Assembly (NCBI GenBank): GCA_012728725.1
Contig: JAAYEM010000030.1
Coordinates: 1-56,225, forward strand
DNA from: Tissierellia bacterium
GTDB taxonomy: Bacteria > Bacillota > Clostridia > Tissierellales > Tepidimicrobiaceae
Length of the DNA stretch: 56,225 nucleotides
Direction of reading: 5' to 3'
In this document: piece after piece, positions 24,728 to 40,795 of the stretch
How the letters are laid out: each line of letters begins with the position of its first letter
Position numbering within the stretch: position 1 is the stretch's first letter
Position numbers and translations under genes: made by a program
Notes under the pieces: model-generated
Told to the model about the DNA's origin: nothing
The model's input: only the letters and a program-made list of their open reading frames with translations
The model's database searches: none

Positions 24728-26410
24728 ATGAAAAGGACTAGTTCAAGATTAGGAGAGCTATTGCTCTATACTAATAAGATTACAGAAGAGCAACTGAATA
24801 GTGCCCTGGAGGAGCAGAAGGGGACAAACAAAAAAATAGGTGAAATTTTAACTGATAAAGGTTATGTCTCTGAAAAAGATATTGTTGAGGTTTTAGAGTT
24901 CCAATTAGGAATTCCCCATGTAGATTTGGATAAGTACACAATTAAACCAGATGTGGTTGCTCAAATTCCAGAAAATATTGCTAGGAGGTATGAATTAATA
25001 GCCATAGATATTCAAAATAATTTTCTTATAGTAGCCATGGCCGATCCTCTGAATATATATGCAATAGACGATGTAAGGATGTTTACAAAATATGAGATAC
25101 AGCCTGTTATAGCCACTAGGGAGAGTATTTTAAACAATATAGATAGGTATTATAGAAAAGAAAGTACAGAGAAGATGATAGAAGAGTTTACAAAACATTA
25201 TGGGGCTAACGAAGTATCCGATATAGAGGATGTGGAATTATCAGAGGTAAGCAGTGCACCTATAGTTAGATTGATAAATTCCATAATTGAAGAAGCTGTT
25301 GATATGAGGGCAAGTGATATACATATTGAACCCTATGTAGATGATATACGAATTAGATTTAGGATAGATGGGGATCTCCATGAAATTACTAGGTTGTTAA
25401 AGAGTAGCCACTCTGCCATAGTAACCAGGATTAAGATAATGGGTAGGATGAATATTGCAGAGAAGAGGATTCCCCAGGATGGCAGGGTTGAAACCAAGAT
25501 AAATGATAAAGAGATAGATATGCGTATTTCAACAATTCCTACCGTTTACGGAGAGAAGATAGTTTTAAGGCTTTTAGATAGAAGTAATTTCAAATTTTCA
25601 AAGGCTGAATTAGGATTTACTAAGGAAAACATGGAGCTATTTGACAAAATATTTAATCAACCCTATGGGATGATTCTAGTAACTGGGCCAACTGGTAGTG
25701 GTAAAACTACCACTTTATATGCCCTCCTTAAGGAATTAAATAGGATGGAGAAAAACATCATTACAATAGAGGATCCAGTAGAGTATAGATTAGAGGGGAT
25801 AAATCAAGTCCAAGTAAATCCTAAGGCAGGTCTGACCTTTGCCAGTGGATTAAGAGCTATTTTAAGACAGGATCCAGATATTATAATGGTAGGAGAGATA
25901 AGGGACTCGGAAACAGCAGAGATAGCCGTAAGGGCAGCTATTACAGGGCATTTAGTTCTTTCTACCCTTCATACCAATGACAGCCCTTCTGCCATAATAA
26001 GGTTAATAGACATGGGTGTAGAGCCCTATATGGTGTCTTCGGCTGTAATAGGAATAATCTCCCAAAGGCTGGTTAAGGAACTATGTCCTAATTGTAAGCA
26101 AGCCTATCTGGCTAGCTATTCAGAGAAAACTTTATTCGGATTAGACCCTGATGAACCTATTACCCTCTATAAGCCCAGAGGCTGTAATCTATGTAATAAA
26201 GGGTACAAGGGAAGAAAGGCTGTCCATGAAGTAATGGCAGTGGATGAGGGGTTAAGAAGGCTTATAAATAAGGAAGCCAATATAGATAGGTTGCGTGCTA
26301 GTGCTATTAAAGCAGGGATGACAAGCCTATTGGATAATGCAATTCAGTTAGCCCTAAAAGGAGAAACCACTGTGGAAGAAGTTTTAAAAGCAGGTTATAC
26401 ATTGGGTTAG
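24728..26410 (+). CDS. pilB: Type IV pilus assembly ATPase PilB
   Basis: A 560-residue GspE/PilB ATPase powering pilus extension. The N-terminal MshEN-type domain (about 1-150: LGELLLYTNKITEEQL, LGIPHVDLDKY) binds c-di-GMP in some homologues. The motor has Walker A GPTGSGKT (320-327), Walker B IIMVGEIRD (about 387-395), His box HLVLSTLHTND, and a zinc clamp CPNCKQ...CNLCNKGYKG near 453-489. It is first of the pilus gene run, 10 bases before pilT. Confidence 0.96.
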   Translation: MKRTSSRLGELLLYTNKITEEQLNSALEEQKGTNKKIGEILTDKGYVSEKDIVEVLEFQLGIPHVDLDKYTIKPDVVAQIPENIARRYELIAIDIQNNFLIVAMADPLNIYAIDDVRMFTKYEIQPVIATRESILNNIDRYYRKESTEKMIEEFTKHYGANEVSDIEDVELSEVSSAPIVRLINSIIEEAVDMRASDIHIEPYVDDIRIRFRIDGDLHEITRLLKSSHSAIVTRIKIMGRMNIAEKRIPQDGRVETKINDKEIDMRISTIPTVYGEKIVLRLLDRSNFKFSKAELGFTKENMELFDKIFNQPYGMILVTGPTGSGKTTTLYALLKELNRMEKNIITIEDPVEYRLEGINQVQVNPKAGLTFASGLRAILRQDPDIIMVGEIRDSETAEIAVRAAITGHLVLSTLHTNDSPSAIIRLIDMGVEPYMVSSAVIGIISQRLVKELCPNCKQAYLASYSEKTLFGLDPDEPITLYKPRGCNLCNKGYKGRKAVHEVMAVDEGLRRLINKEANIDRLRASAIKAGMTSLLDNAIQLALKGETTVEEVLKAGYTLG

Positions 26411-26420
26411 GAGGATTGAA

Positions 26421-27473
26421 GTGGATTTATTAGAATTGATTAAATATGCTACCCACAATAAGGCGTCGGATATACATATTACTGTGGGTATTCCCCCAGT
26501 TTTAAGAATAGATGGTTCACTGGTAAATTTTGGGGATTATATTTTAAGACCGGAGGATACCAAAGAATTGATTAAGCAAGTATTAGATGAAAGGCAAATG
26601 GCCCAGTTGGAGATGGATGGTGAAATAGATATATCCTTTTCAAGTCCAGGTGTTGGTCGTTTTCGTGTAAATGTATATAAGCAGAGGGGTAGCTTCGCCA
26701 TGGCCATTAGGATAATTCCCCTAAGGATCCCCACTATTGAAGAGCTGGGCCTACCTGCAGTAATTAAGGATATAGCAAGGCTACCTAGGGGCTTAATATT
26801 AGTAACAGGACCCACTGGCAGCGGGAAATCCACTACTTTAGCTGCTATGGTCAATCTGATAAACCAAGAGAGGAAATGCCATATATTAACTTTGGAGGAT
26901 CCTATAGAATATTTACATAAACATAATAAGAGTATAGTAAATCAAAGGGAGGTTGGCTCCGATACCAATAGTTTTTCCAATGCCTTAAGAGCTGCATTGA
27001 GGCAGGACCCAGATGTAATCCTAGTAGGAGAGATGAGGGATCTGGATACCATAAGTATAGCCCTTACAGCTGCTGAAACTGGCCATTTAGTATTGTCAAC
27101 CCTACATACAATAGGTGCAGCTAAGACCATAGATAGGATAATAGATGTTTTTCCTCCCCATCAACAACAGCAGATTAGGATTCAATTTTCCTCAGTAATC
27201 CAAGCCATTATATCTCAACAACTACTCCCTAAGGCCAATGGACGGGGAAGGGTGGCAGCCTTTGAAGTAATGATAGCCAATCCTGCTATTAGAAATTTAA
27301 TAAGGGAAGAAAAAATCCATCAAATAGATACTATTATCCAGACAAGTAAAAAACTGGGGATGCAGACCATGGATAATTCCCTATTGGAATTATATAATAA
27401 GGGCTTAATATCAAGGGAAACCCTATTGAATCAAGCTGTTAATTTAGACTATATCAAAAGGTATATTCTATAA
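26421..27473 (+). CDS. pilT: Pilus retraction ATPase PilT
   Basis: A 350-residue PilT ATPase for retraction: Walker A GPTGSGKS (130-137), Walker B VILVGEMRD (199-207) and the PilT-type AIRIIP and LSTLHTIGAAKTIDRIID motifs; the conserved C-terminal AIRNLIREEK is present. GTG start with AGGAGG upstream. PilT implies retractile pili (twitching, DNA uptake), not simple secretion pseudopili. Confidence 0.95.
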   Translation: MDLLELIKYATHNKASDIHITVGIPPVLRIDGSLVNFGDYILRPEDTKELIKQVLDERQMAQLEMDGEIDISFSSPGVGRFRVNVYKQRGSFAMAIRIIPLRIPTIEELGLPAVIKDIARLPRGLILVTGPTGSGKSTTLAAMVNLINQERKCHILTLEDPIEYLHKHNKSIVNQREVGSDTNSFSNALRAALRQDPDVILVGEMRDLDTISIALTAAETGHLVLSTLHTIGAAKTIDRIIDVFPPHQQQQIRIQFSSVIQAIISQQLLPKANGRGRVAAFEVMIANPAIRNLIREEKIHQIDTIIQTSKKLGMQTMDNSLLELYNKGLISRETLLNQAVNLDYIKRYIL

Positions 27474-27487
27474 TATGGGGTGATTTT

Positions 27488-28696
27488 GTGGCCATATACA
27501 AGTATAAGGCTATTTCAGAAAGGGGACAAGTATTGGAAGGATACCAGGAGGCCCAGTCGGAAGCAGAAGTGATTACAATATTAAAGAGTAATAATTATTA
27601 TCCAATAGTTATAGAGGAAGATAGGGGTAGCCATCTAAGGGAGGAATTGATTAGTAAAAGGATTACTAAAAAAGATTTGGCGGTATTTTGCAGGCAATTT
27701 TATACTATGTTGAATGCAGGCATTAGTATAATAAATAGTCTAGATATTTTAGAAAGGCAGACGGAAAACAGGACCATAAAAAGGGCTATATCAATTGTTT
27801 TAGAGGATGTGCAAAAAGGCTTCACCTTATCGGAGGGGATGAAAAAGCATGGCAAGGTATTTCCTCCCCTATTGGTAAATATGGTGGAAGCAGGGGAGGT
27901 AAGCGGTAATCTTGATGTATTGATGGAAAGGATGGCAATCCATTATGAAAAGGAGAATAAGATTGAGAACAAAATAAAAAACGCCCTTATATATCCAGTA
28001 GTACTCAGTATAGTTGCTTTAGGAGTTGTAATATTTTTGCTTACAGTAGTTATGCCTACTTTTATATCCATGTTTCAAACTAGTGGCTTAATACTACCTA
28101 CCCCTACTAGGATACTATTAACTATTAGCGATTGGTTAACTTTGTATTGGTATATATTTATTGGAATTATTTTACTATTTATAGTGGCATTAACCTTTAT
28201 AGGAAAAACTGAAAATGGAAGGCTTTTTTATGACACCCTTAAAATAAGGATTCCAGGAATAAGGAATATGAATATAAAGATAATTACTTCCAGATTTACC
28301 AGAACCCTTTCTACTTTATTGTCCAGCGGTATACCCTTATTACAAGCCTTGGATGTGGTAGGCAGGGTAGTAGGAAATAAGCTGGTGGAAAATCAGATTA
28401 AAAAGGCAGGGGAGGATATAAAAAAGGGGGTACCCATGTCCAGGACCATAAAGGATATGAATCTATTCCCCCCCATGGTAGATTCTATGATAAGGATAGG
28501 GGAGGAATCAGGAGCCCTAGATGATATCCTCTACAAAACTGCAGATTTCTATGATGAAGAAGTGGAAGCCTCCATGGAAAAGATAACCACCATGCTGGAA
28601 CCAGTATTGATAGTAATAATGGCATTAGTAATTGGATTTATAGTAATAGCTATGGCACTACCTATGTTTGATATGGTAGGCAATATAGAAATGTAG
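27488..28696 (+). CDS. pilC: Type IV pilus inner-membrane platform protein PilC
   Basis: A 402-residue T2SSF-family protein with two homologous cytoplasmic domains (KKDLAVFCRQFYTMLNAGI and TSRFTRTLSTLLSSGIPLLQ) and three membrane helices, the last near 375-395. It couples PilB/PilT to pilin movement. GTG start, 14 bases after pilT. Full length for the family. Confidence 0.94.
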   Translation: MAIYKYKAISERGQVLEGYQEAQSEAEVITILKSNNYYPIVIEEDRGSHLREELISKRITKKDLAVFCRQFYTMLNAGISIINSLDILERQTENRTIKRAISIVLEDVQKGFTLSEGMKKHGKVFPPLLVNMVEAGEVSGNLDVLMERMAIHYEKENKIENKIKNALIYPVVLSIVALGVVIFLLTVVMPTFISMFQTSGLILPTPTRILLTISDWLTLYWYIFIGIILLFIVALTFIGKTENGRLFYDTLKIRIPGIRNMNIKIITSRFTRTLSTLLSSGIPLLQALDVVGRVVGNKLVENQIKKAGEDIKKGVPMSRTIKDMNLFPPMVDSMIRIGEESGALDDILYKTADFYDEEVEASMEKITTMLEPVLIVIMALVIGFIVIAMALPMFDMVGNIEM

Positions 28697-29411: not shown

Positions 29412-30170
29412 ATGGCTATAATAATATTCCTACTAGGAATCACAATAGGTTCATTTTTAAATGTGTGCATTTATAGAATACCAAAGGGGGAAAGCCTAGT
29501 CTTTCCCAGTTCCCATTGTATAAAATGCAATACTCCTTTAAAATGGTACAATCTTATTCCCATAATAAGCTTTATATTACAAAAGGGCAGATGTAGATAC
29601 TGTAGGGAGGCTATCTCCCTCCAGTATCCAGTGCTGGAATTGTTAACTGGCATTATACTTACCATACTGTACTTCAATATTGGAATCAATATAGATTTCA
29701 TATACTATTTGTTCCTATTTAGTTTATTGATCATAATTACCTTTATCGATATAAAACATCAAATAATTCCCGATGGATTGATTTTATCAATCCTAATAGG
29801 GACAATTCTGTATAAAAGCATCCAATACCTATTATTTGATGTTCCCATCAATTTATTAAATGGACTAATAGGATTTATTATAAGCAGCCTCTTCTTCCTA
29901 ATCATAATAATAGTATCTAAAGGGGGAATGGGGGGAGGAGATTTAAAGTTAATTGGAGTGTTTGGTTTTATTCTGGGATTTCCTGAAATTATTTTAAATA
30001 TATTTTTATCCTTTATAATAGGTGGAATGGTTTCCATATTATTATTGGCTTTTAAAATTAAGGGCAGGAAGGATCCCATACCCTTTGGACCATTTATAAT
30101 ATTGGGATTTATTGTTACCCTCTTTTGGGGAACTTGTATTATTAGCTGGTATATTAATAGCTTATTTTAA
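29412..30170 (+). CDS. pilD: Prepilin peptidase PilD
   Basis: A 252-residue membrane aspartic protease that cleaves and N-methylates prepilins. C36, C39, C61 and C64 form the zinc-binding cytoplasmic loop of bifunctional enzymes. Catalytic aspartates are D113 in FIDIKHQIIPD and D177 in GGGDLKL. About seven to eight helices. Its substrates (pilA plus seven prepilin-like genes) flank it. Confidence 0.95.
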   Translation: MAIIIFLLGITIGSFLNVCIYRIPKGESLVFPSSHCIKCNTPLKWYNLIPIISFILQKGRCRYCREAISLQYPVLELLTGIILTILYFNIGINIDFIYYLFLFSLLIIITFIDIKHQIIPDGLILSILIGTILYKSIQYLLFDVPINLLNGLIGFIISSLFFLIIIIVSKGGMGGGDLKLIGVFGFILGFPEIILNIFLSFIIGGMVSILLLAFKIKGRKDPIPFGPFIILGFIVTLFWGTCIISWYINSLF

Positions 30171-32419: not shown

Positions 32420-33487
32420 TTGAATCTACCATCTTTTTTAAGAAGAAAAATCCTTTCAATAGACTTAGGAGCATATGAAATAAAGGTTGTAGAAGGAAAG
32501 GAAACCAATAAGGGTATTATAGTGTATAAGCACTTTGCCATACCTACACCCAGAGGAGCCTATGATGATGGGCTAATAGTGGACAAGGAATTACTCCATT
32601 ATGTAATAGATGAGGAGTTTAAAAAGAAGGGAATAAGAACTAAAGATGCCTATTTGACCATAAACAGTTCTCATATAATTACCAGGGAGATTATAATTCC
32701 AAAGGTGGAAGAGGACCAAATTGATGGGCTTATTAAATATCAGTTAGAAGACTATATTCCCATGAATCAAGAAAATTATATAGTCCAGTTTAAAAAAATA
32801 GGCTCCATATATGAAGAGGGAGTGGAAAAACTTAATATATTACTTATTGCCATTCCAAAAGAAATGGTAGAAGGCCATTATAAACTATTGAAGGATTTGG
32901 ACTTAAACCCTCTGGTATTGGACTATCAGCCTAATTCTATTGCCAAACTTATCAAGTATAATCAACTGATAAATGAAAACTATCCTACTGAGGATTTAAT
33001 ATTTTCTGCCATCGATATTGGTTATGATACTACTAAAATATCCATAATAAAAAATGGCCTAATACTGGTAAGCAGGACTATTGAAATAGGCGGAAAATAC
33101 ATAGATCAAAATATTTTAAATTTTTTTGAACTGGATCAATTGCAATTGGAAGAAAAGAAAAGGGAGATAGGAAACATAAATAGATTAGAGGACAATGATT
33201 CAGATGAGGATGGAATTAAAAGGATTATCCTAAATTCCTTCCAATCCTTAAGTGAAAGGATAGAGGTGGTATTTAGATATTTTTTAACCAGGGAGATAGG
33301 TAATGAGATAAATATAATTCTATTATGTGGGGGAAATGCAAATTATGATGGGATAGATAGTTTTTTCTCCAATTATTTTAATATACCCTCAATAAAATTG
33401 GAATCCTTTAATAATGTAGTTTTTGATGGAGAATTGGCTAGATACATTCACCCAATAGGTTCAATTATAAGGATGGCAGAGGTGTAA
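32420..33487 (+). CDS. pilM: Type IV pilus actin-like assembly protein PilM
   Basis: A 355-residue actin/FtsA-fold protein: ILSIDLGAYEIKVVEG (phosphate 1), SAIDIGYDTTKISII (phosphate 2), ILLCGGNANYDG (adenosine site). PilM binds the cytoplasmic tail of PilN and links to the motors. TTG start with AGGAGG 10 bases upstream. Two bases before pilN. Confidence 0.92.
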   Translation: MNLPSFLRRKILSIDLGAYEIKVVEGKETNKGIIVYKHFAIPTPRGAYDDGLIVDKELLHYVIDEEFKKKGIRTKDAYLTINSSHIITREIIIPKVEEDQIDGLIKYQLEDYIPMNQENYIVQFKKIGSIYEEGVEKLNILLIAIPKEMVEGHYKLLKDLDLNPLVLDYQPNSIAKLIKYNQLINENYPTEDLIFSAIDIGYDTTKISIIKNGLILVSRTIEIGGKYIDQNILNFFELDQLQLEEKKREIGNINRLEDNDSDEDGIKRIILNSFQSLSERIEVVFRYFLTREIGNEINIILLCGGNANYDGIDSFFSNYFNIPSIKLESFNNVVFDGELARYIHPIGSIIRMAEV

Positions 33488-33489
33488 AG

Positions 33490-34083
33490 ATGAAGGACTT
33501 AAATTTTTTTGAATCTTATTTGGATAAAAGGGAGTTTAGCATAAATAAGGAGTTTATCTATTATACCCTATCTATTTTACTTATACTATCTATTTTGATT
33601 TATTCCATATATAATCAGATTAAAATTAGGATTATTTCAAAGGATATATATAGATTAAGGGTAACTGTGGAGGATGAAAGGACAAATAAAAAGGTGGATC
33701 AAGTATCCAATAAGAAGGAAGAACTAGATGAATTGAAGGATTTTGTAGAAAAAATAAAACTATTAGATAATACCCTTGAGGAAGAAAGTGTTATAGATAA
33801 TAGATTGCTGGAAGCTATCCAATACAGTTTGCCTAATGAAATTTTCCTTACATCGATTAGCATATATACGGAATATATAGAAATAATTGGAGTGGCAGAG
33901 GATAAATGGTCTATAGCAGACTTGGTGGGCAATTTAGGGAGAATTGAAGAATTTAAAGAGGTATTTATATCTAATATATCCAAAGGGGACATTTACTATA
34001 GTTTTGTTATCAATATAGGCCTAAAGGATGTGAATATGGATGGAGTTAATGGAGAAGATGAGGTTTATGAGGAAACTGACTAG
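33490..34083 (+). CDS. pilN: Type IV pilus assembly protein PilN
   Basis: A 197-residue bitopic protein: a short cytoplasmic N-terminus LNFFESYLDK (PilM-binding; the Gram-negative motif is INLLP), helix 23-42, a coiled coil (45-95) and a ferredoxin-like extracellular domain (PNEIFLTSISIYTEYIEIIG). Its 3' end overlaps pilO by 44 bases, so the two are translationally linked. Confidence 0.85.
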   Translation: MKDLNFFESYLDKREFSINKEFIYYTLSILLILSILIYSIYNQIKIRIISKDIYRLRVTVEDERTNKKVDQVSNKKEELDELKDFVEKIKLLDNTLEEESVIDNRLLEAIQYSLPNEIFLTSISIYTEYIEIIGVAEDKWSIADLVGNLGRIEEFKEVFISNISKGDIYYSFVINIGLKDVNMDGVNGEDEVYEETD

Positions 34084-35473
34084 GAGGGAAAGGAATCTAT
34101 TAATATTATTAATGGTAATTATTATCATTTGGTTAGCCTTTAGATTTGTTATTACTCCTCAGCACGATAGATTGCAGGATTTAATTGGGGAAAAAAGTAA
34201 ATATGATGAAAGGATATCCTACATGAATTCTATATTGATCCAGGAAGGCAGTATAGAGAAGGAATGGGATAGTTTACATAGGGAAAAGGATAGGATTATC
34301 AGTAAATATTTTTCCAATTTGGATCAATCTGAAATAATATACCTTCTAAATGAGCTATTGGGGGATGAAAACATAGAGGTATTGGATATTATATTTTCCA
34401 GACCAAGTGAGGAAAAGGTAGGGGACCTACTAGTTGATGCCATGGAGATTACCATCCCCTATAGGGCTAAGTATGAAGGAATAGTTGAGACAATAAGGAG
34501 TTTGACCACCAGTCCAAAAAGGATTCTAGTAACTGGTTTAACTATGGATAATCAAGAGGGGGATATGATAGCTGGTAATATATATTTAAAGGCATATGGA
34601 TTGAAGGGGGCTGGCCATGAAGAGGATAAATTGTTTATATCCCAGTTATCCGATAAGGAAGTATCTAATCCCTTTAAACCCTTTGATAACTATGTTGAAA
34701 GCCGGGATGATATTGAGATAGAAGGGGATAATTTTTATGAAGAAGGCACCAACCATATAGCTCAGCATCTTCCTGAATATAATAGGAGCGATGAAAATCA
34801 GCTAGCAGAAGGGGTAGATGAGTATAAGAGGGAATTACTGGAGGATTTTGGAAGTGCTTATTTTAACTTTATCCCTTCCAGCAGTATGGTAGAAGGAAAT
34901 GTTTCAAGATCCTATATTGGGAAATCAGGTAGAAATTCTATAAGGGTCGAATATAATATATTGGCATTAGGGGAGGAAAATAGGGCCTATATCGATCTTT
35001 CCCATAGAAATATACTGCTTAAATATCCTCCCTCCACTATAGGGTTGTGGGTACGTTCCTATGCCTATTCTCCTATAACATTGGGAATCAGGCTAAAGGG
35101 ACAGGCAGGAGAATTAATAGATATGGAACTAATTAAGGGGATAAATTGGACAGGCTGGCAGTATGTAGAGGCACCTCCTCCATCAGACCTATCCCTATAT
35201 CCATTATACATAGACAAAATATACTTAGAGGTAGCGTACAATAGGGAGGATTATGGAGTTTTATTACTGGATAAATTGGAAGCCAATTATCCTAAAGGGA
35301 ACCAGTCAAAAGAGGATTTTACCTTTTATATAGTAGAAAAGGGGGATAGTTTAGATAAAATAAGTCTTAAATTTTATGGAACTACTAAAAAGAAAGATAT
35401 TATTATGAAGCATAATGAAATAAATGACGATAAAGATATTAGGGAAGGGAAGATATTGGTAATACCAAGATAG
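34040..35473 (+). CDS. pilO: PilO-like protein fused to a beta-sandwich and LysM domain
   Basis: A 477-residue protein, more than twice the usual PilO length. Residues 1-190 are PilO-like: helix near 18-37, coiled coil to 90 and a ferredoxin-like fold with IPYRAKYEGIVETIRSL. A variable acidic linker (190-265) leads to a jelly-roll-like domain (270-415) with GRNSIRVEYN, STIGLWVRSYAYS and INWTGWQYVE. The end (428-476) is a LysM: FYIVEKGDSLDKISLKFYG through LVIPR. LysM binds GlcNAc in peptidoglycan. The start is taken at 34040; closer ATGs lack better ribosome sites. Confidence 0.8.
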   Translation: MELMEKMRFMRKLTRRERNLLILLMVIIIIWLAFRFVITPQHDRLQDLIGEKSKYDERISYMNSILIQEGSIEKEWDSLHREKDRIISKYFSNLDQSEIIYLLNELLGDENIEVLDIIFSRPSEEKVGDLLVDAMEITIPYRAKYEGIVETIRSLTTSPKRILVTGLTMDNQEGDMIAGNIYLKAYGLKGAGHEEDKLFISQLSDKEVSNPFKPFDNYVESRDDIEIEGDNFYEEGTNHIAQHLPEYNRSDENQLAEGVDEYKRELLEDFGSAYFNFIPSSSMVEGNVSRSYIGKSGRNSIRVEYNILALGEENRAYIDLSHRNILLKYPPSTIGLWVRSYAYSPITLGIRLKGQAGELIDMELIKGINWTGWQYVEAPPPSDLSLYPLYIDKIYLEVAYNREDYGVLLLDKLEANYPKGNQSKEDFTFYIVEKGDSLDKISLKFYGTTKKKDIIMKHNEINDDKDIREGKILVIPR

Positions 35474-35487
35474 GGAAGGTGTTGGCT

Positions 35488-37443
35488 TTGAGAAAAATAT
35501 TCAATAAATTACCAATATTTATATTTATTATAGTAATTGTTGGTAATTGTTCAATAGCCTTTGCCAATGATAGGGATAGATATATAGAGGCAAGGGAATT
35601 TGGAGAGCTGTTTGGTTATAGTGATGGATATTTAGAGGGAATAAAAAATTATTCCACTGGTTTAAAACTATCTTACTATCAAATTAGGCCATCTAGAAAT
35701 CAAATAACTAAGGAATATGAGGACTATCTCCAAGACCAAGATACTAGATACATATCCTATTTTATATCCGCCTATTATACTGGATTTGAGAAGGGCTATA
35801 ATGATGGAATTAAAGAAGATGGGGACTTATCTACAGCCAAGGACAATTATGCTAGTTGGTTAGGATCCACTTTGGGGGAGATATTTGGTTATAGGGATTT
35901 CTATAATAATAGAAGGGCTAATGGTACTAATGCTTTACCTTCCAATAAGAACCTGATAGAAATGTTCAATTTAAATGGATTCACCTCCCAATATAGACTA
36001 GAATTCTTAAGGAAATTCAAAGAGGGTTTTCTAGAGGGTTATCAAGAAGGGTATAGGAGGGCAAATTTTGAACCTATAAGGGTTTCCTATGAAGAAGGAA
36101 TTAGGGATGGAGAATATTTTGGCCATTTGCTTGGAAAAGTTAATGGGGCTAAGGATTATTTCAATAATATGTCTAGGGATTATAAAAGGGATCTGCCATC
36201 TGACAAGAGCATTGAAAGGGAATTTTCCCTATCCAGGGATGGAAAAGAGTATAGGGATGGTTTTATAATTGGTTTTAAAAGGACCTATGAAGAGAGCTAT
36301 AATGAAACTTTTAGGGCCATGAATGTGGACATGCATTTAAGGGCCTATGAATTGGGTTATTTAGATGGAAAAGATGCTGGAATAAATAAGGGGGAAATAC
36401 TTGCTACCATTGACTTTTACCTAAAGGATACCAACGATTGGAGAAGACACCTTCCTAACCAGGAGGATATTATAAAAGAATACAATTTAGCCTTAGAATC
36501 CAATAGGTATAGGGAGGGGTTTATAGTTGGGTATATAGAGGGATTATCCCAAGGCTATATGGCAAAATTCCAAGACTTACATTGGGAGGAGATAAGGATT
36601 AAATCCAAAGCTGAAAAGATTCCCATATCCGGTGGAGAGGTTAAAAGTTTAGATAATATACTTATACTAAATATAGATAAGGGAACTTATTATGCACCGG
36701 TAATAGTAGCTATAGATATGATTCCAGATCCTATAAATATGGCTGATGACAGATATATCAAGGCCTCAGACTTTTACAGGGTGGAAATTATAAATCAATT
36801 GGGAGAAGCAAATGATGAAAAAACCTTAGAACTGCAATTTGAATACTATGGGGACTACAAGGGAGGAATTTATAAATTAGTGGATGGAAAATGGCTATAC
36901 ATACCATCCATAATAGAAGAGGGTTTTATAAAAGCCAAGGTTAAGCCTAGTTCCTTTAAGGATGGTCCAAATATATACTGTGTTTTAATAGATAAAGAGG
37001 CTAAACTACTTAGGGATACAAGGAACCATTGGGCCAGGGATGAAATACTGGCCTTTCAGAGGAGGAATATAATTTCAGGCTATTCCGATAATAGGTTTAG
37101 GCCAGATAAAGAAATTACTAAGGGGGAGTTTTTCACTATAATCAGCAAGGTATATAATTGGCAATTGCCTGGGGATAAAAAGGCTAATATCTATAAGAGG
37201 GTAATGGACTATGCTTTAAATAATGGGATTATTGAAAAGCCCTTTAAGGGTAATGAATGGGTAACCTATAGAGAAGTAGATGCAATAATGAGGAAAATTA
37301 CACATTCTAAATCTTTTGCTTGGAGTAATATTGCATCTAAATTGCTGTATGAAAAACTGCACAGAAGTAGAAGTTTGGATTCTCATAATAATCCTATAAC
37401 TAGGGCTGAAGCGGTTTATATGTTATATATATTAAATGAATAA
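35488..37443 (+). CDS. Secreted S-layer homology protein with four GxxxG-rich repeats
   Basis: A 651-residue exported protein (signal cut after AFA-26). Residues ~35-361 hold four imperfect repeats; each has a GxxxGxxxG-like helix, then a conserved R/LPSxK-xxI-x-x-x-Y/F block, then YRxGFxxGYxEGY (for example FKEGFLEGYQEGY). A beta domain (382-502) follows, then an SLH motif (NHWARDEI to GYSDNRFRPDKEITKGEF, about 513-560) and two degenerate SLH repeats ending NPITRAEAVYML. SLH domains bind pyruvylated wall polymers. I use TTG at 35488, 8 bases after GGGAAGG. Lying between pilO and minor pilins, it is probably part of the pilus apparatus; function unknown. Confidence 0.75.
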   Translation: MRKIFNKLPIFIFIIVIVGNCSIAFANDRDRYIEAREFGELFGYSDGYLEGIKNYSTGLKLSYYQIRPSRNQITKEYEDYLQDQDTRYISYFISAYYTGFEKGYNDGIKEDGDLSTAKDNYASWLGSTLGEIFGYRDFYNNRRANGTNALPSNKNLIEMFNLNGFTSQYRLEFLRKFKEGFLEGYQEGYRRANFEPIRVSYEEGIRDGEYFGHLLGKVNGAKDYFNNMSRDYKRDLPSDKSIEREFSLSRDGKEYRDGFIIGFKRTYEESYNETFRAMNVDMHLRAYELGYLDGKDAGINKGEILATIDFYLKDTNDWRRHLPNQEDIIKEYNLALESNRYREGFIVGYIEGLSQGYMAKFQDLHWEEIRIKSKAEKIPISGGEVKSLDNILILNIDKGTYYAPVIVAIDMIPDPINMADDRYIKASDFYRVEIINQLGEANDEKTLELQFEYYGDYKGGIYKLVDGKWLYIPSIIEEGFIKAKVKPSSFKDGPNIYCVLIDKEAKLLRDTRNHWARDEILAFQRRNIISGYSDNRFRPDKEITKGEFFTIISKVYNWQLPGDKKANIYKRVMDYALNNGIIEKPFKGNEWVTYREVDAIMRKITHSKSFAWSNIASKLLYEKLHRSRSLDSHNNPITRAEAVYMLYILNE

Positions 37444-37464: not shown

Positions 37465-37908
37465 ATGAAGGATATTAGAGGAAGTACTTTTATAGAGATT
37501 ATATTGATTATTAGTATAATTTCTATTTTAATATTAATTCCACTAATAAGGGGTGGGGTATTCAAAAGCTATAAGGAAAGGGAAGAGTTAAAGGAATTTA
37601 TAAAGGATTTAAATTATGCAAGGATTAGGGCTATAGTAGAATCTACAAGGTATAGCGTCAATCTAAAATATGGAGACAATTCCTATACTATTATTAAACA
37701 TACTAATCCAAAAGAAATCATAAAAAGGAAAGAATTCACAAATGGCATTAGAATTAGAAATTCATCTATAATTAATAACGAAATTGAATTTACCCCTGCT
37801 GGAACACCAAGGGATTCAAAGACCATTTATTTAGAGGATAGAAATAGGAATCTAATCAAGATTACCATAAGAGTTGCTACTGGAAAGATAAGCGTTTATT
37901 TTGATTAA
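37465..37908 (+). CDS. GspH/FimU-like minor prepilin (set 2)
   Basis: A 147-residue prepilin: MKDIRG cut before STFIEIILIISIISILIL with Glu5. The core LKEFIKDLNYARIRAIVES and EFTPAGTPRDSKTIYL is typical of H/FimT-type minor pilins. First of a four-gene H-I-J-K-like set. Confidence 0.78.
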   Translation: MKDIRGSTFIEIILIISIISILILIPLIRGGVFKSYKEREELKEFIKDLNYARIRAIVESTRYSVNLKYGDNSYTIIKHTNPKEIIKRKEFTNGIRIRNSSIINNEIEFTPAGTPRDSKTIYLEDRNRNLIKITIRVATGKISVYFD

Positions 37909-37930
37909 TATGTGTTAATAAGTGAGAAAA

Positions 37931-38377
37931 ATGAAAAAAAAGGGTTTCCTTCTAATAGAAATTTTAATGGGTTTGTTTTTGTTGGGCATAGTATCAGTTA
38001 CCTGCCTACCCATATTGAATGCAGGGATAGATAATATAAAATTGAACAGGAAGAAGGTAGATATGGTATTTATTGCAGAATCTACCATTGAACAGATTAA
38101 ATCCTTTGAAAACACCTGGGATGAGGATGAATACCTATTCCATATGCCTTTGATAGATTTGATGGAATTATTTTCAAACCAGAGTTCTGTAAGCATAACA
38201 CTACCTTCTAATCTAGAAGAAAGTAGTCAGTATAAATGTACTATATACAAGGAAAATTTCGATAAAAATTTGTGGAAGATCCATATTATTATATCACCAA
38301 CTATGGAGGATAATAGGGTCAAGGATGTTAGTATATGGTTTTTTATGCCTGTACCTAAAAAGGATAGGATTAAATAG
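37931..38377 (+). CDS. GspI/PilV-like minor prepilin (set 2)
   Basis: A 148-residue prepilin starting MKKKG, cut before FLLIEILMGLFLLGIVSV, Glu5 present. An in-frame GTG three codons upstream is an alternative start; neither has a strong ribosome site. Its end overlaps the next prepilin by 53 bases. Confidence 0.76.
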   Translation: MKKKGFLLIEILMGLFLLGIVSVTCLPILNAGIDNIKLNRKKVDMVFIAESTIEQIKSFENTWDEDEYLFHMPLIDLMELFSNQSSVSITLPSNLEESSQYKCTIYKENFDKNLWKIHIIISPTMEDNRVKDVSIWFFMPVPKKDRIK

Positions 38378-38927
38378 AAAAAACAATAATGGGGGTTTTT
38401 CTCTAATAGAAATACTGCTGGCCTTAGCTATAGGTTCTATTATATTTATTTCAATGTATTCCATATTGGATTTTACATTAACAGGTTCAAAACTTGCTGA
38501 TATGGAGGATGAAATATTATTAAATGGCCAGTATGCTCTGGAACATATAAAAAGGGAAATAAGGGAGGCAGATGAGATAATAGGCCTCCATAAGATAGAA
38601 GGTGCAGAGGATAAATATGACAATAATTTTGGTTTTGTAATTAAGAAGTATAATGAAACTGCCAGTTATAAGTATAATTATTCTACCTATTATTTTGAAA
38701 ACAACAAGATTTGGAGAGATGCATTCAATACCAATGTAGATAAATTGCCTAGGGCTGCTAACTTAAAAGGAAGCAATGAGATAGCAGAATACGTAATATC
38801 AATTGAGGGTACGGGAATAGATTTTGATTCTAAATTAATCAGATTATCCTTTACATTTAAGGGGGAAGCTGGCAAGGAAAGAAGATTTGAGACACAGCTT
38901 GGCATTAGATGTCCAATTTTATATTAG
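38325..38927 (+). CDS. GspJ/PilW-like minor prepilin (set 2)
   Basis: A 200-residue prepilin with a long 24-residue leader ending KNNNGG before FSLIEILLALAIGSIIFI, Glu5 present. ILLNGQYALEHIKREIREAD is a typical J/PilW region. The start ATG lies inside the previous gene; no later ATG, GTG or TTG lies in frame before the cleavage site. Confidence 0.76.
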   Translation: MLVYGFLCLYLKRIGLNRKNNNGGFSLIEILLALAIGSIIFISMYSILDFTLTGSKLADMEDEILLNGQYALEHIKREIREADEIIGLHKIEGAEDKYDNNFGFVIKKYNETASYKYNYSTYYFENNKIWRDAFNTNVDKLPRAANLKGSNEIAEYVISIEGTGIDFDSKLIRLSFTFKGEAGKERRFETQLGIRCPILY

Positions 38928-38945
38928 GTATGGGGTGATATTCCA

Positions 38946-39965
38946 GTGGGTAATGATGGATTTTCGTCTATTATGGCCCTTTTGGTAGCTACCCTTGTTT
39001 TGGTTATTGCTGTGTTTATTATATTTTTAGCTAGTATGGAACACCAAATAATTTATTCTAATGCAGACAATCTTCAGGCCTATTATCTATCAGAGGGCAA
39101 AATATTCATGGCTTTATATAAGGATGAATATTATAATGATCAGCTTTTACCTAGGCTGGAAACCTATATAAAATACGGTAGATTGTCACCTTTTTACGAT
39201 CCCTATATACGTTTAAAGGAAGAGGATTTAATTGAAGGGGATAAATTTAATACTATTACTACAAGATTCTACTATAAAAATAATAGGAATTATGTAGACT
39301 TGATAACTAGCAGTAATTATAGGGGAATTAACAGTGAGGTAGTAGCAAGAATTATTATACTTAATGACCTATTTGAATTGGGTCATTCCATAATATCAAG
39401 AGAAAACATAAGTGGGGACCAGATGGAAAAATATGAATACTTTTTTAGCCATATTGAAGAGAATATAAAAATTCCAGCCACTGGAAATGATATTTTAGGG
39501 ATGGAAGTTAATGATTATGATATGATAAATATATTAAGGGACACTAATAAAAAAATGAATATTGAATTTTATAGAAATGGCATGGAAGGGCCTGTAAAAA
39601 GTCAGGTATTAACGAAGGATGAAATATTTTTATTGGCTAAGAACAATTCTTCCAAACCCGTTAGGCTGACTATTTTATCAGAGGAAAAGGCGGATAATCT
39701 ATTATTAAAGGGTATTATCTATATAGAAGGGGATTTAGAAATACTTAATGATTTTGAATTCCATGGTATATTGATACTTAATGGTGGCCATCTATATATA
39801 GCCCCTTTGGTTAATTTTGAGGTAGAGGGAATAGTATTTATGAAGGATTACATACAGGATGATAGTACAATCCATGCCAGGTATAATTTTGATAAGATTA
39901 TAAAGTATGGAAATTATTTGCCAATGTTCATATATCCCAAAATAGAATTAATAAAGAGTAATTAG
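38946..39965 (+). CDS. GspK/PilX-like minor pilin (set 2)
   Basis: A 339-residue protein from a GTG start (TATGGGGTG upstream). The N-terminus MGNDG then FSSIMALLVATLVLVIAVFI resembles a prepilin without Glu5, and SNADNLQAYYLSEGKIFMAL matches the K/PilX region. The C-terminal ~120 residues have short beta turns (GIIYIEGDLEILNDFEFHG, ILNGGHLYI) like a small beta-solenoid. It closes the second minor-pilin set. Confidence 0.7.
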   Translation: MGNDGFSSIMALLVATLVLVIAVFIIFLASMEHQIIYSNADNLQAYYLSEGKIFMALYKDEYYNDQLLPRLETYIKYGRLSPFYDPYIRLKEEDLIEGDKFNTITTRFYYKNNRNYVDLITSSNYRGINSEVVARIIILNDLFELGHSIISRENISGDQMEKYEYFFSHIEENIKIPATGNDILGMEVNDYDMINILRDTNKKMNIEFYRNGMEGPVKSQVLTKDEIFLLAKNNSSKPVRLTILSEEKADNLLLKGIIYIEGDLEILNDFEFHGILILNGGHLYIAPLVNFEVEGIVFMKDYIQDDSTIHARYNFDKIIKYGNYLPMFIYPKIELIKSN

Positions 39966-39984: not shown

Positions 39985-40260
39985 GTGAAGCTTAAAAATT
40001 TAATGGAAGATGAAGTCATGTATGCAATAAATAAGATATTGAAGGACAGGGATGATGTATGTACTTGTGAAAAATGCAAATTAGATATTGCAGCTATTGT
40101 TTTAAACAATTTGAAACCCAAATATGTGGTTACAGAGAAAGGAAGCCTGTATGCAAGATTAGATACATTGGATTATCAATTTGATGCAGATATAGTAAGT
40201 CAGATAGCAATGGCAATTGAAAAAGTAAAGGATGAACCACGGCATGAAAAGGAAAAATAG
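39985..40260 (+). CDS. comFB: ComFB family (late competence) protein
   Basis: A 91-residue protein with the ComFB pattern: NLMEDEVMYAINKIL at the start, CTCEKCKLDIAAIVLNNL with a Cys cluster, and PKYVVTEKG. ComFB proteins have recently been described as cyclic dinucleotide (c-di-AMP/c-di-GMP) receptors that affect type IV pili and competence in cyanobacteria and others. It starts at GTG, 19 bases after the last minor pilin and ends 1 base before aroK, so it is probably the last pilus-operon gene. Confidence 0.85.
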   Translation: MKLKNLMEDEVMYAINKILKDRDDVCTCEKCKLDIAAIVLNNLKPKYVVTEKGSLYARLDTLDYQFDADIVSQIAMAIEKVKDEPRHEKEK

Positions 40261-40261
40261 T

Positions 40262-40795
40262 TTGAATAATATTGTTTTGATTGGAATGAGCGGAGCTGGT
40301 AAATCTACAGTAGGAAAATATATAGCTGATAAATTAAAAATGAGATTTGTAGATACAGATGATATAATAGTAACCAATAGTGGAAAAACAATTAAACATA
40401 TTTTTGCTGAATATGGTGAAGAATATTTTAGAAGGTTGGAGAAAGAGGTTATTACTAAACTGGCTCCGGTAAGCAATACAGTAATTGCTACTGGGGGTGG
40501 GGTGGTTTTAGATAGGGCTAATATAGAGCTGCTAAAAATAAATGGAATTATATTTTTTTTGGAAGCTAGCATAGATACGTTGGTATATAATATTGAAAGA
40601 GCAGCCTATAAGGAACACAGGCCCCTTATAGAAAATAGCAATAATAAGAGGAGTAGAATAGAAAGGCTATATTCTAGTAGGGAAAGGCTGTACAGAGAAA
40701 GTGCAGATTATAGTATTAAAACAGATAACAAATCCATAGCCCAAATAGGGGATGAAATTATTTTTATTTTTAAAAATATAGACCCTTGTAGTTAA
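40262..40795 (+). CDS. aroK: Shikimate kinase
   Basis: A 177-residue P-loop kinase that phosphorylates shikimate. GMSGAGKST is Walker A, FVDTDD binds shikimate/Mg, ATGGGVVLD the GGG loop and EHRPLI the lid. I prefer the TTG at 40262 (AAAGGA 9 bases upstream) because it gives the usual N-terminus; ATGs at 40232 and 40244 are poorly placed relative to a ribosome site. Confidence 0.92.
   Translation: MNNIVLIGMSGAGKSTVGKYIADKLKMRFVDTDDIIVTNSGKTIKHIFAEYGEEYFRRLEKEVITKLAPVSNTVIATGGGVVLDRANIELLKINGIIFFLEASIDTLVYNIERAAYKEHRPLIENSNNKRSRIERLYSSRERLYRESADYSIKTDNKSIAQIGDEIIFIFKNIDPCS

Follow-up and report, generated by a model that had tools for sequence, protein, structure and literature searches.

In bacteria that have no outer membrane, it is still an open question how a type IV pilus passes through the thick cell wall, according to the consulted sections of Pelicic 2019 (PMC6916266). 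The 56,225-nt stretch of DNA analysed here (the window), which is one complete contig from a draft assembly of 2.07 Mb, raises this question at a single gene. Downstream of pilO, within a type IV pilus cluster, lies a gene for a protein that combines tandem helical repeats with an SLH end. We therefore asked what this protein is and whether it belongs to the pilus machine.

Domain layout of the protein

The features of the gene and of its surroundings are collected in Table 1. The ORF listing gives a 654-aa product from a mechanical GTG start at 35479. The TTG at 35488, which gives a 651-aa product, appears to be the better start, since a GGGAAGG sequence ends approximately 9 nt upstream of it and the Met of the homologues aligns there. 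Promoter and terminator scans gave a signal no better than that of shuffles. The predicted signal peptide terminates in SIAFA-ND and the SLH domain scores 46 bits against a Pfam cut-off of 20.8, so that the protein has the combination expected of an SLH cell-surface protein; the SLH domain is also above the cut-off in 17/17 homologues tested. The cut-off is reached by the first SLH unit only, while the AlphaFold2 model contains three SLH units. The SLH end called in the first-pass annotation is thus confirmed, and the signal peptide is predicted as it was there. Between the repeats and the SLH end lies a beta domain that was absent from that annotation. Its model superimposes on the ankyrin-B ZU5 domain (VIA Z 11.1, 124 residues, rmsd 3.2), and the ZU5 assignment is a fold-level one, sequence support being E 0.26 in one homologue only. 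Modelling gave a pLDDT of 82 over the mature protein and of 88 over units 2-4, and a pTM of only 0.47-0.58 leaves the relative placement of the units uncertain.

Table 1. Coordinates of the gene, its domains, the surrounding pilus cluster and proteins of other genomes discussed in the text.
Feature	Coordinates	Strand	Evidence or remark
PilB, PilT, PilC of the same cluster	24728..28696	+	NCBIfam
Prepilin peptidase PilD	29412..30170	+	Pfam A24_N_bact, Peptidase_A24
PilM	32420..33487	+	Pfam PilM_2 3e-36
PilN	33490..34083	+	Pfam PilN 1.5e-10
PilO-like, C-terminal LysM at ~35327-35467	34040..35473	+	Pfam LysM 7e-7
SLH-anchored pilus-operon protein gene	35488..37443	+	alternative start GTG 35479
Signal peptide, predicted SPase I site AFA-ND	35488..35565	+	read by eye from sequence
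Helical GxxxG/YxxGF unit 1, divergent (residues 37-110)	35587..35808	+	unit HMM 3e-10
Helical unit 2 (residues 123-202)	35845..36084	+	unit HMM 5e-27
Helical unit 3, most conserved (residues 204-286)	36088..36336	+	unit HMM 9e-32; mean identity 46%
Helical unit 4 (residues 290-374)	36346..36600	+	unit HMM 4e-30
ZU5-fold beta domain	36604..36993	+	AlphaFold2 model, matching ankyrin ZU5 with VIA Z 11.1
Three SLH units, third with ITRAE motif	37006..37440	+	Pfam SLH 4.9e-12; VIA Z 14.9 to Sap SLH (AlphaFold2 model)
Minor-pilin genes, start 22 nt 3' of the gene	37465..39965	+	
Small secreted proteins with the unit	L138:840-1784, L140:6226-7005, L139, L141, L142, L143		
VWA-domain proteins, other PilM clade	L082:8543-11776, L083:2661-4526, L085:1429-5274, L086:8295-11162		

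The helical repeat unit

Comparison of the protein with itself produces a strong diagonal at an offset of 86 residues (score 106; the highest score among 100 shuffles is 49), and a unit HMM matches four times in the protein and not once in 200 shuffled copies of it. Glycine pairs spaced i,i+4 number 20, against 3.0 ± 1.5 in shuffles. The consensus of 50 units is YExGxxxGxxxGxxxGxxxGxxDYxxG..NxWxRxxPSxxxIxxxYxLxxxxxxYRxGFxxGFKxxFxExYxxxYxxxN. The first-pass annotation had described four tandem units, each with a GxxxG stretch, a PSxK-I block and a YxxGF stretch. The blocks and their number stand, but the unit is ~83-86 aa long rather than 75 and the first copy is divergent; pairwise identity among the four is 26-31%. 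The repeat region is charged, and its top 19-residue hydropathy of 0.36 is too low for membrane spans.

In agreement with the first-pass annotation, which recognised no named domain in the unit, the repeat is not named in Pfam and matches no PDB fold. A unit-profile search of the PDB returned nothing below E 0.3, and a profile search of the PDB with the full alignment returned SLH matches only. When PDB folds were compared with a model limited to the repeats (pLDDT 88), no match reached an E below 5. A likeness of the repeat model to an aquaporin (best VIA Z 5.1, 71 residues) was set aside as chance tight-helix packing. The modelled repeat seems to have no relative among solved folds, a missing match being no proof of a new fold.

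Homologues and their genomic setting

Scanning genome contigs with the single sequence found no relatives, and an alignment-based profile search succeeded. The repeat region has a relative in 29 of the 61 genomes of the order, plus a fragment at a contig end in G005, and in 10 of 291 genomes of a wider class sample, including two families outside the order. Named relatives include Schnuerera, Tissierella, Sedimentibacter and Tissierellia MAGs, and by these the window belongs in Tissierellales or close to it. Cultured carriers include Sedimentibacter acidaminivorans DSM 24004, Tissierella simiarum MSJ-40 and Schnuerera. When both the repeat and the beta domain are required, 40 distinct homologues of 496-895 aa remain, each with 2-5 detected units and, in those listed, a matched SLH end. 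The longest (L060:2998-5682, genome G024) has 895 aa and five detected units; the PilO of that genome has an internal LysM followed by ~85 more residues.

Sequence upstream of the gene is available for 39 of the 40 homologues, and all 39 lie in type IV pilus loci. In 37 of these the gene directly follows pilO on the same strand, and in the other two (G026 and G042) it is found ~2 kb further downstream, after a pilin gene of the same cluster. Conserved genetic linkage to pilMNO, as expected of a type IVa pilus accessory protein, is therefore seen at every checkable locus, which upholds the link to the pilus drawn in the first-pass annotation; for the gene as a whole, homologues do not lie mostly outside pilus loci.

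The gene is present in a single copy in genomes that carry it. Within the 61 genomes of the order every match to the unit falls in this gene, and none was found in their other SLH proteins. In a phylum sample, however, the unit is also present in small secreted proteins of other orders (families f116 and f136), where a copper-amine-oxidase-N-like domain (Cu_amine_oxidN1-like) stands in front of the GxxxG units. None of the genes around f116 and f136 is recognisably homologous to the pilus genes of the window; the f116 proteins adjoin an apparent efflux/MacB-type ABC transporter operon. On its own, the unit is thus found in a small number of surface proteins that are not part of pilus systems. 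Its presence there makes the unit a module older or wider than the pilus role, with the full architecture pilus-linked wherever it was seen.

Several pilin genes also lie upstream of pilMNO, together with pilB, pilT, pilC and pilD. No secretin over the cut-off is present in the 61 genomes of the order, as expected because these are monoderms, and the window protein itself has no Pfam secretin match (PF00263). The window PilO carries a middle domain of ~170 aa without a Pfam name ahead of its LysM. The gene at 38946-39965, after the minor pilins, encodes 339 aa with a pilin-like N-terminus and no Pfam match, and is the fastest-evolving among the compared cluster genes (40% within the family). 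The shikimate kinase gene aroK (40232-40795) follows the pilus cluster, a position kept in most relatives that is reminiscent of the pilQ-aroK linkage of proteobacteria.

Loss of the gene, the S-layer and the PilO LysM tail

A PilM tree of 48 rows contains a clade of 29 genomes with a support of 100/100. All 23 carriers of the gene in this clade have 9-57 SLH matches each, whereas the six non-carriers have 0, 0, 0, 0, 3 and 4 (Fisher p 2e-6, a statistic that ignores relatedness). The carriers' counts include the gene's own SLH units, which are too few to explain values of at least 9. The six non-carriers occupy four places on the tree, in a part where some forks are open, pointing to approximately four separate losses. 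Four of them (G001, G009, G031 and G057) keep the gene order of the pilus cluster except for this gene, the first minor pilin coming directly after pilO. CsaB is the SCWP pyruvyl transferase, the enzyme that makes the wall polymer ready to be bound by SLH domains. It is missing in five of the six non-carriers, G009 being the one that keeps it, and is present over the cut-off in the window genome (G000:C67, E 1e-92). Two carriers, G010 (78% complete) and G016, have no CsaB that we could find, which may reflect assembly gaps. The SLH end, together with loss of the gene alongside genomic SLH proteins and CsaB, bears out the earlier suggestion of anchoring at the wall and S-layer.

The gene also goes with the LysM tail of PilO, which is found at 38 of 40 gene-positive loci against 2 of 20 gene-negative ones, counts that are somewhat limited by draft contigs and frameshifts (the PilO of G001 is split). 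Among the genomes that lost the gene, the LysM of PilO is absent in G018, G020, G031 and G057 and present in G001 and G009; conversely, G034 and Fusibacter have the gene and a PilO without LysM. Twelve members of the order have a true PilM and many SLH proteins but not the gene, and LysM is missing from each PilO of theirs that the contig includes. Therefore, the gene is not required for type IV pili in SLH-bearing cells generally, and is one solution among several. At four loci of the other PilM clade that we examined, which have neither the SLH gene nor a LysM on PilO, the pilus cluster encodes a secreted VWA-domain protein of 620-1280 aa with a C-terminal PLPxI-like motif, possibly a tip adhesin or a different wall solution.

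Discussion

We consider it likely that the gene encodes a dedicated envelope component of the type IVa pilus machine in bacteria without a secretin. The best reading is that of an anchor of the monoderm machine at the level of SLH binding and the S-layer, acting with the LysM-tailed PilO. This would be a new part of a known machine; its basis is wholly computational, with export, fold, operon membership and correlated loss coming from sequence, model or genomics. A different account is that of an SLH surface protein or adhesin whose expression goes along with that of the pilus but which is no part of the machine and acts next to it, perhaps in attachment. Any SLH surface protein would be expected to be anchored in this way and to be lost with the S-layer, and the variable unit number and the occurrence of the unit in non-pilus surface proteins fit this account as well. 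However, the 39/39 pilus loci, the co-variation with the PilO LysM tail and the absence of the unit from the numerous other SLH proteins that these genomes encode argue for a closer tie to the machine. Moreover, the divergence of the gene matches that of PilN and PilO (46 vs 49%, 37 vs 37%) and is not faster, which speaks against a fast-evolving adhesin. We therefore regard an adhesin beside the machine as unlikely.

In pilMNOPQ operons, pilP and pilQ occupy the position after pilO. The position of the gene, the absence of a secretin from the order sample and the role of GX3 helices as protein-protein contact elements in Yae1/Lto1 (PMC4523923) would suit the collar or channel put forward in the first-pass annotation, taken as a closed structure of several subunits that lets the filament through and replaces PilQ in monoderms; with no fold match to any ring protein and a unit number that varies from 2 to 5, we find such a structure distinctly improbable. 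Because the unit number varies, a tether, arm or spacer is mildly favoured over a ring of fixed geometry. A further reading, in which several copies of the helical repeat, attached to wall polysaccharide through their SLH ends, form with the LysM-tailed PilO a secretin-free conduit for the pilus through peptidoglycan and S-layer of single-membrane bacteria, is possible but doubtful. As for the loose likeness to deca-GX3 proteins remarked on in the first-pass annotation, it is real but weak: Yae1_N matches 6 of 17 homologues (best 5e-4) but not the window protein, and NCBIfam FliH matches at 2e-5. Yae1/Lto1 and FliH share with the window protein a glycine at every fourth residue of their helices. 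The window protein, however, is predicted to be secreted, with a signal peptide and an SLH end, has at most five consecutive GX3 (not ten) and is built of a two-helix unit of ~85 aa with a PSxxxI linker, and its FliH score is 24 bits against a cut-off of 192. Membership of either family was rejected, and a role as a deca-GX3 or FliH-type adaptor of an ATPase is hardly credible.

The signal peptide is expected to export the protein, and the SLH end to keep it bound to pyruvylated wall polysaccharide, level with the wall and S-layer. If the protein is indeed an anchor of the pilus machine, the stiff, tightly packed GxxxG helices could form an arm or collar reaching from the SLH anchor to the machine, most likely to PilN/PilO, or to the filament as it emerges. 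Below the SLH anchor, PilO would bind peptidoglycan with its LysM tail. Such an arm or collar may fix the machine against retraction force and keep a passage open through wall and S-layer. Such a role would resemble that of PilP/PilQ plus TsaP in Gram-negatives, without relationship. The shared features are the operon position after pilO, an envelope partner for PilMNO and wall binding within the system, TsaP being a LysM protein that binds peptidoglycan (Siewering 2014, as cited in the consulted part of PMC7545093). In contrast, the window protein has no secretin or LysM domain, is anchored by SLH rather than in the outer membrane, and has no sequence or fold relation to them that we found.

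Other systems offer partial parallels. We know of no homology between the window protein and ArlF/ArlG of archaella. The latter tie a type IV-filament motor to the S-layer (consulted part of PMC13319060) and thus share the idea of the role, but they are archaeal and bind S-layer protein directly. With Sap (3pyw) and SpaA the window protein shares the SLH domain (VIA Z 13-15), and it differs by its N-terminal helical units, ZU5 domain, pilus operon and single copy in each genome; we see no sign that it is a major S-layer protein. The extra C-terminal part of the large, non-canonical PilO of monoderms is proposed to handle peptidoglycan (consulted part of Pelicic 2019, PMC6916266), and a PilO-LysM is described from Litorilinea (consulted part of PMC13319060); the window PilO shares such a C-terminal extension. 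In the latter source, as far as consulted, PilO-LysM stands beside archaellum genes in only 3 Chloroflexota, whereas in Tissierellales loci carrying the SLH gene it is the rule. The consulted parts of both sources describe no SLH partner gene of a large PilO or PilO-LysM, and we found no SLH protein in a type IV pilus locus in the literature.

It is probable that the protein ties the pilus machine to wall and surface layer by means of an unnamed helical repeat. For the question of how pili cross the monoderm wall, the SLH gene and the LysM tail of PilO are two concrete, deletable candidates that are present together, tend to disappear along with the S-layer and are found in cultured strains.
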